Of a stretch of DNA of 22,192 nt, positions 6,228 through 12,608 are shown piece by piece (the first letter of the stretch is position 1; every line of letters begins with the position of its first letter). This DNA comes from a virus. Both the position numbers and the translations under genes were made by a program. The stretch is taken from positions 1-22,192 of the IMG/VR virus record IMGVR_UViG_3300025151_000340. One strand, written 5' to 3'. The notes beneath the pieces are model-generated. The model searched no databases, had not been told where the DNA came from, and saw nothing but the letters and a program-made list of their open reading frames with translations.

Positions 6228-9002
6228 TTATGTAGAGCCAACTCCAGGTTTGTCTTCCATTTTAACAATTAATCGTTCCAGTGCGTTAAGTAAACTTCTT
6301 TGCATAGCAGTATCTTCGCCATATGTATCTTTGTCAAATCTGCTTGTTAATCGTTCGTCTACATCTCGCTTGATTGCGTCAATTTCGCTTCGTTGTATTC
6401 CGTCTGTTAGGTCAATTTGACCATCTCTTACTAAATTGATTACTGATTGTCTAAATGACCTTGCCGCGGCTAAGCCGTCTGCGCCACCTACATCTCGTTT
6501 GATTTTATCAATTGTACTATCTAGTGTTCCAGAAACTTCACTATAACCGGGTAAGATTCCCATATCATCCCCTCCAAAGCCTTGGGTATTACCAAAATCA
6601 GCACGGGAATAAGTAGTGAAAGTTTCATTCACTGATTTCATGTTATTAGCATAATCTTGTAAGAAACGATTAATCCTAGGATCATTGTCTTTAAATAACT
6701 CAGTTAATTTGGCGGCTGTTACATTGCCACCTCCGACTGCTTCAAATAAGCCAAACTCCTTTAAATAACGAGCAATTTCAATTCTGTTTTCTCTCGCGGC
6801 TTGAACAAGTGTTTCTACAGTAAAAGCATCCATCTCGTAACGGTCCATCATCTCTTTTTTAAAGTCGTCCATGGTCTCGTCTGTTACTCCTGACGCGGTT
6901 TGAAATTCTTTATTAGTTACTCCAAACTGATCTGCTCCAGCAGATCTAGTATCTAATATTTCCTGGAAGAATCCTTCGATGCCGTGTTTTGCGCCTGCTC
7001 CCTCGCTACCGCCAAAGAATAAACCTTTATCGTTCATTGCTCTTGCTTCGTTCATCCTGCCTTGACGTATATATGCCATACCAGCCTGTTGCTTCATAAA
7101 TCTTCCATCGGTTGCTTCGTAAATGCTTAAGGTAATGTCGTCTATAAGTTTTCTAAAGAAATCACTTACAATGGTTCCTAGATTGTTTTCTTTCATATCC
7201 TGTCCGATCTTAGCACTGATTTCATCGATGGTTTGGGTTATTAAATTGTTTAGGCGTTCTGCGGCGTCGGCTCTGTCTTGGCCGCTACCAGCATTAAAAT
7301 AAGCATCTATGGCTTCGTTAAATCTAGCAAAAAATCCTGTTCCTTGGAAGAGATCGCCTATCAAAGGCAAGTTTTCTACAAAGTCTTGTACTAGTATAGA
7401 AAAATTCTTAATTACTGCTCCAAAGTTTACACCCTCTCCTGTGGTACTTACACCAAGTATGCCCATTGTGAATTGCATAATAGCATTTTCAAAAGGTGCT
7501 TTCATCATGTCGAAGAATGTATCTGCTTGAGCACTAATAACTGATATGTTTCTTGCTCTATCGCCATCGGTTGTTAAGTCATTTAATAGTGACTGCCTTG
7601 CTCTAGCCTCACTGGCAAAGTTCACAGCCTGTATTGCTGTTTGACTTCGAGTCATTAAAGCAAGTTGCCTTGCTCTGTTAAATTCATCCTCTGTGGTATC
7701 TACTAAAGAATTCATGATGCTGTTAATTGTGTCGTCGGTGATTTTACCGCTATTAACAATATCTGATTGCGCCATATCCATGGAGTCTACTAATCCAGGG
7801 AAAACTGTAACAAGGTCTGTAAAGCCTTCGTCTAGACCAACAGCACCAGTAATAACAGCATTAATCAATGGACTTGTAATAGCACCGGCATACGTCGGTG
7901 ACAGTCCAACCATCTTAATACTTAATTTTCTTATACTGGTTTGTAATTCTGAAATACCGTCATCGCCTAACTCTCTTGCTCTGGCGGCAATAAGTGTATT
8001 TGTTTCGTCCTCTAGTTTTGCTCTTTCGTAAAGTTCTTCTTCTGCTATACCTGCCGCTTTACCTACGTTCCTTAATGTTCTAGCAACTTCTATAACATTA
8101 CCTGCTAAGTTAGTTCCTTCGGCATCAAGTCTCATACCAAGTCTTGCTCTGATAGATATTTCTCTACCTAACAGTTTTGTCATTTCTTCGTTTTGATAAC
8201 CCATATCAAATAAGCCGCCGGACAGATCCCTTGTAGCATTTCTTAGATCTCTGTAGCCTTCAGCACCTAACACCATAATTTCTTCTGATGTTTCTTGTAG
8301 TGCTTCGGTAAACTCTTTTAAACTTAAACCTGCTAAACTGGCCTGTGTTGCTATATTAGTTGAACCGTCTGTGTACGCACCAACTAATCCTGCTGTTCCG
8401 TTTGATAAACTGTCATTCATTAAGTTAAATGTTTTCATTAATTGTTTACCAATAAACAATGCTACGGCACCTGCCGCCGAGGCAATAGCACCAACAAATC
8501 CAGCAAGTTTCTTAATAGTTTTCATTACCATTTGGCCAAACATAGCAAGAGGACTAATCCTACCACCTAAATCACGCAACATACCTAACGCATTAGCACC
8601 GTCTCCACCATCGCCACCTTGATTGTTTTGACCTAATTTTACTAGTTCGGCAATTCCCTCGTCCATGCTAGTAGTCGACTTTTGTAGAGCCTCCTCTGCT
8701 TTTTGAGTTTTGTTTTGATGTTGTTTGGTTTGTGCTTGATGCTTGTCGTCGTTGGTATTATCTTTTTTCTGTTGACCTTGAAGTGCCTGAATAGCCTTAG
8801 TATTCTTGTCTAATGCCGCTTTTAGCATTTTGCCTAAACCGCCACTAGGATTAAGTTTCTTATCTATAGAACCTAATTTTTTATCAATTAAAGCCTGCGT
8901 GGCTTCTTTTGCCCAATCAGGACCAGTAAAGGTTATACTATACTCGTTACCGCCTCCGGAAGCAGTACCTTTAAAATCCTGTGGTGCTTTACCTTGTGCC
9001 AT
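6228..9002 (-). CDS. Probable tail tape measure protein (gp29 analogue)
   Basis: This is a 924-residue protein, mostly predicted helix. Residues 1-30 contain a strand-like YSITFTGPDW segment. Residues 35-125 are polar and rich in Lys and Gln with coiled-coil character. A Gly/Asn linker follows (about 126-140), then a hydrophobic segment at about 166-186 (AGFVGAIASAAGAVALFIG). Next comes a long Ala/Leu-rich helical region including SLAGLSLKEFTEALQ. One membrane-like segment in a long helical tail protein, next to a baseplate/chaperone gene, is the usual picture of a tape measure protein, which sets tail length and may leave the tube during infection. I see no catalytic motif. T4 gp29 has 590 residues, so sequence identity is not claimed. 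The ATG at 9002 has AGGAAA 8 bases upstream, and a late promoter lies at 9076-9083. Confidence 0.55.
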   Translation of the reverse strand: MAQGKAPQDFKGTASGGGNEYSITFTGPDWAKEATQALIDKKLGSIDKKLNPSGGLGKMLKAALDKNTKAIQALQGQQKKDNTNDDKHQAQTKQHQNKTQKAEEALQKSTTSMDEGIAELVKLGQNNQGGDGGDGANALGMLRDLGGRISPLAMFGQMVMKTIKKLAGFVGAIASAAGAVALFIGKQLMKTFNLMNDSLSNGTAGLVGAYTDGSTNIATQASLAGLSLKEFTEALQETSEEIMVLGAEGYRDLRNATRDLSGGLFDMGYQNEEMTKLLGREISIRARLGMRLDAEGTNLAGNVIEVARTLRNVGKAAGIAEEELYERAKLEDETNTLIAARARELGDDGISELQTSIRKLSIKMVGLSPTYAGAITSPLINAVITGAVGLDEGFTDLVTVFPGLVDSMDMAQSDIVNSGKITDDTINSIMNSLVDTTEDEFNRARQLALMTRSQTAIQAVNFASEARARQSLLNDLTTDGDRARNISVISAQADTFFDMMKAPFENAIMQFTMGILGVSTTGEGVNFGAVIKNFSILVQDFVENLPLIGDLFQGTGFFARFNEAIDAYFNAGSGQDRADAAERLNNLITQTIDEISAKIGQDMKENNLGTIVSDFFRKLIDDITLSIYEATDGRFMKQQAGMAYIRQGRMNEARAMNDKGLFFGGSEGAGAKHGIEGFFQEILDTRSAGADQFGVTNKEFQTASGVTDETMDDFKKEMMDRYEMDAFTVETLVQAARENRIEIARYLKEFGLFEAVGGGNVTAAKLTELFKDNDPRINRFLQDYANNMKSVNETFTTYSRADFGNTQGFGGDDMGILPGYSEVSGTLDSTIDKIKRDVGGADGLAAARSFRQSVINLVRDGQIDLTDGIQRSEIDAIKRDVDERLTSRFDKDTYGEDTAMQRSLLNALERLIVKMEDKPGVGST

Positions 9003-9116: not shown

Positions 9117-9968
9117 ATGACAGCAAAAACATCATTACAGGATTTTTACAGATCCCCTAAACTATACATAGAACTGCCAAGCGGTGGTAAGTTTTATGAC
9201 GAAAGTATTATAGATTGGCCCGAGACAGGCGAACTACCAGTATTAGCAATGACGCCAAAGGACGACTTAATTGTTAGAAACCCTGACGCATTACTAAACG
9301 GCGATGCTGTTATTAGGCTTGTAAAAAGTTGTATGCCGTGTGTAAAGAAACCAGAAAGTCTTATTGCGCCTGATATGGAACTAATATTAGTAGCAATTAG
9401 AGCCGCTTCAGAAAAAAATAAATCAATTGAATTAGATCATAAGTGTCCAGCATGTGAACACGAAATGAAATTTGATCTAGACTTATCAACAGCGGTACAA
9501 GACTTCGAGTCTATAGAAGAACTATCAGAATTCCAATTAAGTAACGGATTAACAGTAGGTATAAAACCTGCTAACTATTTGTTTTCAATACAAACTGCCA
9601 AATCCATGATAGAACAAGCAAATCTACTTACAAAAATTACCAACGAAGAGTACGATTCAGAAAACACAAGACTTAAAAACATTGGCGAAGCATTTGATAA
9701 AATGGCACAGTATAATTATAGTGTGCTTGTAAACAGTATTAGATACATTGCTATTCCAGACAGTGATGAAAGAATTGATGACAGAGATCAAATTTTAGAA
9801 TTTTTAGATAATGTCGATGCTAAAATAGGTAAAGAAATCGACGGTGTTGTTAGCAGTATTAACAACGGCGGTATTAACAAGATACACAATGGCGCATGTG
9901 AAGAATGCGAAGAGCCATTTGAAATACCGATCGATTTTGATCCAGTAAGTTTTTTCTTAACTTCCTAA
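9117..9968 (+). CDS. 26: gp26-family baseplate hub protein / tail assembly protein (zero-frame product)
   Basis: This is a 283-residue protein of the T4 baseplate gp26 type. Family features seen are LPSGGKFYD (about 20-28), MTPKDDLIVRNPDALLNGDA (about 45-64, the strongest signature), the charged central helices, and two CxxC pairs, C110/C113 (CPAC) and C261/C264 (CEEC), that could form one zinc-binding site; the end reads FDPVSFFLTS. In T4, gp26 acts in baseplate hub assembly, and gene 51 follows it directly. The ATG at 9117 has GGAG five bases upstream. The last codons overlap a -1 slippery heptamer (9950-9956), so this is expected to be the major short product, with a minor fusion of about 361 residues ending at 10201. 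The T4 gene number is by family, not by demonstrated orthology. Confidence 0.8.
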   Translation: MTAKTSLQDFYRSPKLYIELPSGGKFYDESIIDWPETGELPVLAMTPKDDLIVRNPDALLNGDAVIRLVKSCMPCVKKPESLIAPDMELILVAIRAASEKNKSIELDHKCPACEHEMKFDLDLSTAVQDFESIEELSEFQLSNGLTVGIKPANYLFSIQTAKSMIEQANLLTKITNEEYDSENTRLKNIGEAFDKMAQYNYSVLVNSIRYIAIPDSDERIDDRDQILEFLDNVDAKIGKEIDGVVSSINNGGINKIHNGACEECEEPFEIPIDFDPVSFFLTS

Positions 9969-10005
9969 ATAGAGCAGAGCCTGAGGAAATCAGGAACTAT
10001 TTAGG
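9950..10005 (+). promoter_or_regulatory. Programmed -1 ribosomal frameshift signal (slippery heptamer plus stem-loop)
   Basis: The heptamer T TTT TTC sits in the correct frame (codons AGT-TTT-TTC, 9948-9956). After seven bases a stem-loop begins: outer stem CCTAAATAG (9964-9972) with CTATTTAGG (9997-10005), nine perfect pairs, and inner stem CCTGA (9980-9984) with TCAGG (9990-9994) closing a GGAAA loop, joined by an unequal internal loop. The zero-frame stop TAA is at 9966-9968, inside the outer stem. Heptamer, spacer and structure match the established -1 frameshift design. Confidence 0.85.
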
Positions 10006-10201
10006 ATTACTAGAGGAGCAGTCAGAAGCAATTCGAAAATCTGTATACGATCTAGTAATCTACACCGAAGGCTCTATTAGTGTTAACGAAGCATGGGCAA
10101 TGGATTTTGGTGATCGTCAAATTGTTATGGACAGTTTCGAAGAATTCATGAAAGCAAAGAATCCAGGTAGCAAGAACGAAATGAAACAAGAACAAATGTA
10201 A
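9956..10201 (+). CDS. -1 frame extension of the gp26-like gene (gp51-like position)
   Basis: This is an 81-codon frame reading LNFLNRAEPEEIRNYLGLLE and onward, ending MKQEQM. It is open only from 9941 (a TGA in this frame is at 9938-9940), and its first ATG comes 47 codons after the slip, so it has no normal start and no Shine-Dalgarno. It encodes a predicted helical, acidic segment. Read through the slip at 9950-9956 it would give a fusion of about 361 residues. In lambda (G/GT), P2 (E/E') and many other phages a -1 extension of a tail assembly chaperone recruits the tape measure protein; in T4 the gene after 26 is 51, a hub-assembly catalyst. Either role fits. The stop abuts the stop of the next, convergent gene with no gap. 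Confidence 0.8.
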   Translation, partial: LNFLNRAEPEEIRNYLGLLEEQSEAIRKSVYDLVIYTEGSISVNEAWAMDFGDRQIVMDSFEEFMKAKNPGSKNEMKQEQM

Positions 10202-11110
10202 TTATAGGTATATGTCGCTTGTTTCGTTGCTGTTTAGATACACTATATACTGCTTAAAATCCTCTTTAAAGTAATTTAAATGCTCTAAATCCATTGATTC
10301 TACTTGCGTATATACACCCTCGACCTCTTTATTATTGGTTAATTTAACGAGGTTTTTTAGATATTTTAACGATTTTATATAGGAATTTGTGCTCTGTACC
10401 TTGTATTTGACGCGGTCATACATAGGTATTTGCTCGTTGTCTTGTATGTGTAATAGTGCGTGATTAATATTCCTGTGTAATACCAACTTCATCTCATCGG
10501 CCTCACTTAAAACCTCGCCTAAGACTGCGTATACGTCGGTGTGTGCTGTTTTCATCAGTATACGGCATACATGTACCAGACTACCAATAGCACTTGCTGT
10601 AAGCACTCTATTGTACAGTTGGAACCATGATAGTTTATTGGTATCTTGGTAAATGGTGTGGAGGCTTAGTTTATACCGCTCCGGCTCAAAATTTCTATCA
10701 GCCACATTAAGCAAACAGTAATCAGTATCATGCTGTACAATAATCCAATCGTATATAGGGTCTACTTCCATAGTCCTAGCAGTTTCTATATCTCCGGGGT
10801 ATAAAAGTACCAAAGCATCGTTATCCTGTCCGTATACTTCCTGGAATACTTGCTCTCTGAACTGTTTTAGCAAATACGGAGCACTCGCACAACGTATATA
10901 CTTGTTTGCTGTATCAACGCAATGCTCACTTAACTGTAACTGACACTCTAGCAGATCTTGTAAATGTCCATCTATACCACCCATGGAGGTTGGTAATAAC
11001 ATTTTGAATAAACCTATGTCTTTGAACTTTTGAATGTTGTAGATGTCATACTCACATGTATGTATAAATTCACTTTTTATGTGTATCCAATTATCTTGTA
11101 CTGGTATCAT
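10202..11110 (-). CDS. Acyl-CoA-dehydrogenase-like accessory protein, probably degenerate
   Basis: This is a 302-residue protein. Residues 28-64 (KFKDIGLFKMLLPTSMGG, then DLLECQLQLSEH) closely follow the N-terminal helical signature of acyl-CoA dehydrogenases and related flavin monooxygenases (GL-x-x-x-x-x-P-x-x-x-GG, then a helix ending before the substrate pocket). Residues 162-225 (FQLYNRVLTASAIGSLVHVC onward) resemble the helical C-terminal domain. The middle beta domain is short, the total is about 80 residues under the usual 380, and I do not find a clear catalytic Glu or FAD-binding arginine, so enzymatic activity is doubtful. No Shine-Dalgarno precedes the ATG at 11110; instead CATAAATA ends five bases upstream, predicting a leaderless mRNA. 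The fold assignment is an inference from pattern; an unrelated helical protein is possible. Confidence 0.5.
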   Translation of the reverse strand: MIPVQDNWIHIKSEFIHTCEYDIYNIQKFKDIGLFKMLLPTSMGGIDGHLQDLLECQLQLSEHCVDTANKYIRCASAPYLLKQFREQVFQEVYGQDNDALVLLYPGDIETARTMEVDPIYDWIIVQHDTDYCLLNVADRNFEPERYKLSLHTIYQDTNKLSWFQLYNRVLTASAIGSLVHVCRILMKTAHTDVYAVLGEVLSEADEMKLVLHRNINHALLHIQDNEQIPMYDRVKYKVQSTNSYIKSLKYLKNLVKLTNNKEVEGVYTQVESMDLEHLNYFKEDFKQYIVYLNSNETSDIYL

Positions 11111-11684: not shown

Positions 11685-12185
11685 ATGGAGCATTTTACAA
11701 TCACTGGCATTTTGACTAAAGAAGAATGCTCTGAAATCATAAGCAAATTACCAGATAAGAAAAACAAACTAGATGTTCGTAGCCGTACTCTAATTCCTGG
11801 TAAATGGACCGATGCCGAATGGAGTAAAACTCGCAAACAATTTAACACCCACCGGATAAAATTAGAACAAGATGCCGCAGAGTATATTAGCAATATAATC
11901 AAACCCATAAGTACAGAATTAGAAACGTTGACATTAACTAATAAAGATATTTTTTATGTAAACTATTACAACGCAGGTGAATGTGCTCGTGAGCACATAG
12001 ACCCATCAAAGTATACAATATGTATTGCTCTTAATGATGACTTTGAAGGTGGAGAGTTTTTTGTTAATAAAAAGCCAGTAAAATTAAACACAGGCGACGG
12101 TGTTATTTTTTTAGGTAATACTACACATGCTGTAAGCGAAATACTGTCTGGGTCTAGATGGAGTTTATGCGTCTGGGTTTTTTGA
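11685..12185 (+). CDS. 2-oxoglutarate/Fe(II)-dependent oxygenase (prolyl-4-hydroxylase type)
   Basis: This is a 166-residue single-domain enzyme. The metal triad is H104-x-D106 (in REHIDPSKY) and H148 (in GNTTHAVSEI), and R158 (in SGSRWSLCVW) is placed to bind 2-oxoglutarate. The GGEFFV strand (about 122-127) and GDGVIFLG turn (about 137-144) are typical of the double-stranded beta-helix of this family. These enzymes hydroxylate proteins, small molecules or nucleic acid bases using O2 and 2-oxoglutarate; the substrate is not evident. Such genes are common in marine T4-like phages. The 3' end overlaps the convergent nuclease gene by 21 bases. Transcription probably starts at the ATG itself from the CATAAATA at 11672-11679. 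Confidence 0.88.
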   Translation: MEHFTITGILTKEECSEIISKLPDKKNKLDVRSRTLIPGKWTDAEWSKTRKQFNTHRIKLEQDAAEYISNIIKPISTELETLTLTNKDIFYVNYYNAGECAREHIDPSKYTICIALNDDFEGGEFFVNKKPVKLNTGDGVIFLGNTTHAVSEILSGSRWSLCVWVF

Positions 12186-12608
12186 GTCTTGTTTAAGGCC
12201 TTCACGTAATACTTTTGAACCACCTATGCGAACGTTGATGATTCCGTTGTAGTAATCGTCTGTGAGCAGTACTTCTCGTTCAAATTGTTCTCTTGCTTCT
12301 AAGTAACTTGCTATGCCTCTACTGGCACAGAAGTAAAGTACTTCTCTAGTAAAACTGTCTTCTCCTAATTTTTCTACATCTTCTTTTAGGTGATCTGAAC
12401 TGCCCCAATAGTCTCGCCAGTCACTTTCTTTTGTACTGCGTCTTTTATTCTTTTTGCCTTTAAGCGGAGGGCGAGTAACTTTACGTTTGGCTAATTTTTT
12501 GCCAACGTATTTCATGCCGTTCTTTTTGTTTGTGATAAGATAAACGATTGCTTCGCAATCTTCTGGCAAGTTGTCTATTACTTCTCCGTTATAGGTCCAC
12601 TTGCTCAT
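12165..12608 (-). CDS. GIY-YIG-like endonuclease
   Basis: This is a 147-residue basic protein. The IVYLITNKKNGMKYVGKK stretch (residues 21-38) is a variant GIY-YIG module (IVY...YVG). It is followed by basic residues (about 37-60), KESDWRDYWGSS (about 61-72), and YLEAREQFEREVLL (about 101-114), where a Glu would serve as metal ligand, then YYNGIINVRIGG. In T4 the GIY-YIG proteins are homing endonucleases (Seg). This one sits in an operon with gp46, with its ATG overlapping the gp46 stop (TAATG), so it may be a resident nuclease acting in recombination or host DNA degradation and not a mobile element. The last 21 bases overlap the oxygenase gene on the other strand. Confidence 0.75.
   Translation of the reverse strand: MSKWTYNGEVIDNLPEDCEAIVYLITNKKNGMKYVGKKLAKRKVTRPPLKGKKNKRRSTKESDWRDYWGSSDHLKEDVEKLGEDSFTREVLYFCASRGIASYLEAREQFEREVLLTDDYYNGIINVRIGGSKVLREGLKQDSKNPDA

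Follow-up and report, generated by a model that had tools for sequence, protein, structure and literature searches.

Organization of the Locus

The DNA analyzed here, which we call the window, is the whole of a 22,192-nucleotide stretch of viral metagenomic contig (positions 1 to 22,192 of IMG/VR record IMGVR_UViG_3300025151_000340), and the features of the locus are collected in Table 1. Profile searches assign the 283-aa product of the gp26-type gene to PF12322 (E=1.5e-14) and phrog_150 (E=1.7e-15). The protein scores 54.6 bits against a curated PF12322 cut-off of 24.5, and its gene is the only PF12322 copy in the contig. When the AF2 model of this protein (pLDDT 86) was used in a structure search against viral models, T4-like baseplate hub assembly proteins were recovered with E-values reaching 7e-26. 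Two CxxC pairs (Cys110/Cys113 and Cys261/Cys264) are invariant in nine jumbo-type sequences and resemble a zinc site.

Table 1. Features of the gp26-type locus in window coordinates
Feature	Positions	Strand	Basis
Divergent 924-aa neighbour, weak candidate for a tape measure or structural protein	6228..9002	-	Position, weak BLASTP
T4 gp26-type gene, zero-frame product, predicted short chaperone (TAC-N / lambda gpG-like)	9117..9968	+	PF12322, phrog_150
Slippery heptamer T_TTT_TTC, in frame	9950..9956	+	Sequence, plus relatives
-1 frame extension, T-like C-terminal domain	9956..10201	+	HMM, AF2, start-codon absence
Predicted RNA stem-loop, probable pause element	9963..10006	+	Fold energy, same offset in relatives
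Zero-frame stop TAA, within 5' arm of stem	9966..9968	+	Sequence, fold

The gene ends in the zero-frame reading AGT TTT TTC TTA ACT TCC TAA, which places an X XXY YYZ heptamer in phase 18 nt before the end of the stop codon, just where a first-pass annotation of the sequence had seen it. After a spacer of six unpaired nucleotides comes a stem-loop with an outer stem of 10 perfect pairs (9963-9972 with 9997-10006) and an inner stem of 5 bp, CCUGA/UCAGG (9980-9984 with 9990-9994). That annotation had the inner stem right but counted 9 bp in the outer stem and 7 bases in the spacer. The fold has an energy of -16.5 kcal/mol (z=-3.9), which only 1 of 200 shuffles equaled, and it puts RNA structure within the interval of 5-9 nt downstream of the slippery site. 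Positions 9941 to 10201 are open in the -1 frame, which provides 81 codons after the shift (9956-10198) before its own TAA at 10199-10201, for a predicted fusion product of 361 aa. Its first ATG, GTG, or TTG lies at 10100, which leaves 48 start-less codons; the 81 codons of the first-pass annotation agree with our count, and its 47 start-less codons are one too few. The -1 stop does abut the next gene, a convergent minus-strand gene that ends at 10202.

Upstream, the 924-aa neighbour occupies the same place as the divergent structural gene found beside gp26 in PA5oct, XaC1, and Munch. A single BLASTP comparison with the corresponding neighbour in Phosso gave a weak match (E=6e-4), and in XaC1 the neighbour has a tape-measure PHROG match at 0.002. 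Taken together, we consider the window protein a weak candidate for a tape measure or structural protein. Further downstream lie a 2OG-Fe(II) oxygenase-like gene (11685-12185, +) and a SegE-like GIY-YIG endonuclease gene (12165-12608, -).

Coding Capacity of the -1 Frame

The 77 open codons past the zero-frame stop have a chance probability of about 0.002 at local composition. An HMM built from the extensions of 11 other phages, with the window left out, matches the window -1 frame at E=3.2e-16, and the runner-up among 585 six-frame segments of the window reached only E=2.5. This match bears out the earlier suggestion that the frame encodes a plausible protein, which AF2 models as a helical domain (pLDDT 86.7). 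A tblastn search with the window extension alone gave weak matches, three of which lie directly after gp26 genes (SCTP-2, Vibrio 2.275.O, and Atu_ph07). Judged by its sequence, the -1 frame is real coding sequence. Close to the 3' end of the short gene the locus has an in-phase X_XXY_YYZ heptamer, and its open -1 frame codes for a conserved domain; the heptamer, the stem, and the homologous -1 frame all argue for the programmed -1 frameshift that had been proposed at the end of this T4 gp26-type gene.

Conservation of the Signal in Relatives

All eight jumbo phages that we fetched carry T_TTT_TTC in the same phase at the end of the gp26 gene, 12 to 42 nt before the end of the stop codon, followed by an alignable -1 continuation that runs 58 to 75 codons beyond it. 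The signal is also present in CM1 and two more IMG/VR lineages, and 11 jumbo-type phages carry it in all. The heptamer and an open -1 extension also occur in KVP40, HTVC008M, P-SSM4, phiM12, Cr30, Aeh1, Aeromonas 65, phiW-14, and S-RIM8. Apart from the cyanophage-type loci described below, the phages with the site in the same phase thus number 20, of which four have the variant T_TTT_TTT. LR756511 (L015) is ambiguous, since its heptamer lies 72 nt before the stop and its extension is weak. When gp26 of the window was used as an IMG/VR query, no relatives were recovered, a degenerate DNA pattern search gave no matches, and an alignment of nine fusions was too diverse to yield a search pattern.

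A set of 80 cyanophage-type loci from IMG/VR (77 distinct proteins) was more uniform. Every one has T_TTT_TTC exactly 12 nt before the end of the stop, although these 80 counts are not 80 independent events because the loci are kin. None of the 95 other Phe-Phe pairs in the same genes is written T_TTT_TTC. The -1 frame has no stops in 3680 codons, compared with 331 and 389 in the other frames, and its pN/pS is 0.20 versus 1.0 and 2.4. Cyanophage gp26 and the adjoining "baseplate hub assembly catalyst" (for example, in S-RIM8) share the heptamer, its phase, and the -1 extension with the window, and the catalyst's PHROG is the family to which the gp51 C-terminus belongs. The cyanophage pair differs from the window in being annotated as two genes, in often having an ATG in the -1 frame within a few codons of the stop, and in an extension that lacks about 14 residues at its start. 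Many of these loci may additionally make the T domain as a separate protein. Among the phages examined, related ones with the same signal total about a hundred.

Stems in relatives start about 6-8 nt past the heptamer and show no sequence conservation. Pairing probability at offsets 6-14 was 0.71 in 21 diverse phages (0.46 +/- 0.04 in shuffles) and 0.66 in 79 cyanophage loci (0.45 +/- 0.03 in shuffles). RNAalifold predicted no common stem for the cyanophage set, leaving its consensus unpaired, and we therefore claim conservation of the stem for its position alone. The comparison with homologues suggested in the first-pass annotation upholds the heptamer and the -1 frame, and the stem in position but not in consensus structure.

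A Probable Frameshifted Tail Assembly Chaperone Gene

These observations make it very probable that the window gene, a member of the T4 gp26/gp51 family, encodes a tail assembly chaperone (TAC) in a short form and a rarer -1 long form. We infer the slippage, its rate, and the role of each form as follows. Most ribosomes would halt at 9966-9968 and release the 283-aa short chaperone. A few, held up by the stem-loop downstream, would slip back one base on T_TTT_TTC and go on to make the 361-aa protein, ending in the helical domain that gp51 of T4 has in frame. If labor is divided as between lambda gpG and gpGT, coating of the tape measure protein would fall to the short form and recruitment of tail tube (or hub) subunits to the long one.

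Lambda G/GT is one gene with short and long products, made by a low-rate -1 frameshift near its 3' end (PMC5009743). The window would resemble it in deriving both forms from one gene in this way and differs in that the tape measure candidate beside the window gene is divergent and weak and in that no sequence or fold match to gpG/gpGT was found. Neither the gp26 model nor the extension model from the window matched any PDB structure at E<=0.001, solved TAC structures included, an uninformative absence, and because there is no TAC fold match, the link to the lambda/HK97 chaperones rests on gene logic. P2 E/E+E' and the Vandenendeviridae TAC (PMC12846349) are likewise -1 frameshifts in the chaperone genes of contractile-tail phages. 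The Vandenendeviridae slippery motif, GTTTTT, is unlike that of the window (PMC12846349), and both chaperones probably belong to other protein families.

Could the extension instead be a small gene in its own right, read from a start codon of its own or through reinitiation past the gp26 stop? GenBank does list it as a separate ORF in SCTP-2, Vibrio 2.275.O, XaC1, Munch, PBECO4, and S-RIM8, the ATG near the stop in many cyanophage loci would serve such a gene, and in two marine loci (L139 and L144) the domain truly follows its own ATG. We nevertheless consider a separate gene very unlikely for the window, where the first start comes only after the 48 codons noted above; in PA5oct, ATG, GTG, and TTG are wholly absent from the -1 frame. 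Protein conservation begins upstream of the annotated starts, the invariant phase of the heptamer would be needless for a separate gene, and the same domain is fused in frame in T4 gp51, RB43, and CPt10. It is extremely unlikely that both products arise by RNA polymerase slippage on the T-run. Longer runs of the kind this would favor occur in a few relatives (T8 in HTVC008M; T7 in phiM12, Cr30, and CM1), but most have exactly T6C, in the phase for tandem slippage and with a stem at ribosomal distance, and a run of six T is on the short side for slippage by polymerase. An indel from sequencing or assembly that split one long gene has next to no probability and is refuted as the cause, error-prone as a six-T run in a metagenomic contig may be, by the same zero-frame stop and -1 continuation in many independently sequenced cultured phages and in 80/80 of the cyanophage-type IMG/VR loci.

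T4 gp26 and gp51 as a Duplicated Pair

The proposed frameshifting gene of the window has a homologous counterpart in T4 that works with two genes. T4 gp26 and gp51, the TAC-N and TAC-NC of T4-like phages, both match PF12322 (8.8e-64 and 3.9e-52), and by this profile evidence the two are paralogues. A description of gp51 as a mere C-terminal extension was rejected, since PF12322 identifies it as a full gp26 paralogue with the extension in frame. The extension itself belongs to phrog_634, which matches T4 gp51 147-246 at 1.2e-23 and a cyanophage -1 extension at 1.3e-27, and an HMM of all extensions matched T4 gp51 and left T4 gp26 unmatched. T4 gene 26 has TTC TTT in place of the TTT TTC of its relatives, with no extension after it. 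The gp51 domain is thus the in-frame homologue of the window's -1 domain, and the difference lies in two genes versus one gene with a frameshift.

Copy number follows the same division. T4, RB43, and Campylobacter CPt10 have two PF12322 copies, short and long, with the extension in frame in the long copy and no slippery site; frameshift-type genomes in which PF12322 was detected have one copy each (the profile missed SCTP-2 gp26). Because two-copy genomes lack the site and frameshift genomes are single-copy, two genes appear to replace one frameshifting gene. The proposal that gp26/gp51 and G/GT are the same logic in two forms gains support from the PF12322 paralogy and from the match of the gp51 C-terminus to the extension family. 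A gp26 tree groups the window with jumbo phages (support 99/97) and T4 with RB43 at modest support. At a support of 69/33, the tree does not discriminate between one and two duplications for T4/RB43 and CPt10, and a single origin for all gp26 duplications is neither shown nor excluded. In RB43 (L117 1501-2794), the long gene 51 and the short gene 26 overlap in tandem, which suggests a local duplication.

A +1-Frame Extension in a Marine Lineage

In 16/18 informative IMG/VR loci from relatives of the uncultured phage LR756508, several of them near-identical, the extension is in the +1 frame and is preceded by a conserved TTTTGG. These loci (L129-L138, L140-L143, L145, and L146) have it at the gp26 stop, and L014 and L012 show the +1 frame as well. 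In the IMG/VR loci the extension follows a conserved TTC/TTT TTT TGG, which we regard as a candidate +1 programmed frameshift site of this marine lineage; in L129-type loci the candidate site is CTTTTGGCC. In L139 and L144 a separate ORF that starts at its own ATG, immediately past the gp26 stop, encodes the extension, and there is no slippery heptamer. Homology between the extensions of this lineage and the jumbo ones is supported by hmmsearch (3e-7 to 8e-4 for most, at a nominal database of 1000) and by hhalign (probability 96%), which suggests a switch of frameshift direction within the family. The +1 extension of RM378 was unmatched by the extension HMMs, and the +1 frame of SP-15 is known from one sequence, for which a second relative was not found.

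We lean slightly toward a reading in which this family makes its pair in four ways (-1 frameshift, +1 frameshift, duplicated genes, and a separate domain gene), the direction having switched while the protein stayed the same. On that reading, the -1 shift on T_TTT_TT[C/T] in the window, jumbo phages, cyanophages, KVP40, and others is probably ancestral. The +1 class at a conserved TTT_TGG site would hold the marine lineage and perhaps also SP-15 and RM378, T4, RB43 (in tandem), and CPt10 would form the duplication class, and L139 and L144 would form the separate-domain class.

Relation to Previous Work

Although the first-pass annotation knew of no description of the frameshift in this family, Vladimirov, Gautam, and Davidson (Virology 566:9-15, 2022) had, by later accounts, already identified the TAC genes of T4-like phages, which lowers the novelty of our findings. 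As that study is cited elsewhere, it covers T4-like phages that have a short gene and a long fused gene in place of frameshifting (PMC10885494) and poly-T -1 signals in T4-like TAC-N genes (PMC12846349). Going by these citing accounts, what is apparently new here is the jumbo phages, including the window phage, the stem-loop at a fixed distance, and the marine lineage with its extension in the +1 frame or in a separate gene.

According to a 2016 recoding review, long-tailed phages "except T4" widely conserve G/GT frameshifting (PMC5009743). Outside the two-gene phages, nearly every T4 relative that we examined has retained the frameshift, the jumbo phages and KVP40, a member of T4's own family, among them, and T4 therefore looks like a derived exception. 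The predicted long chaperone is absent from the annotated proteomes of these phages because GenBank omits the extension or calls it a separate hypothetical protein. The gp26/gp51 pair has been listed only as hub assembly chaperones, with the function of gp51 unknown (PMC3004832), and it gains a testable stoichiometric role. Finally, uncharacterised proteins of about 490-550 aa from giant phages such as RSF1, RP12, Eowyn, Special G, and PS1 match the window gp26 model at E ~1e-5, and on the strength of these model matches they could be candidate TACs.
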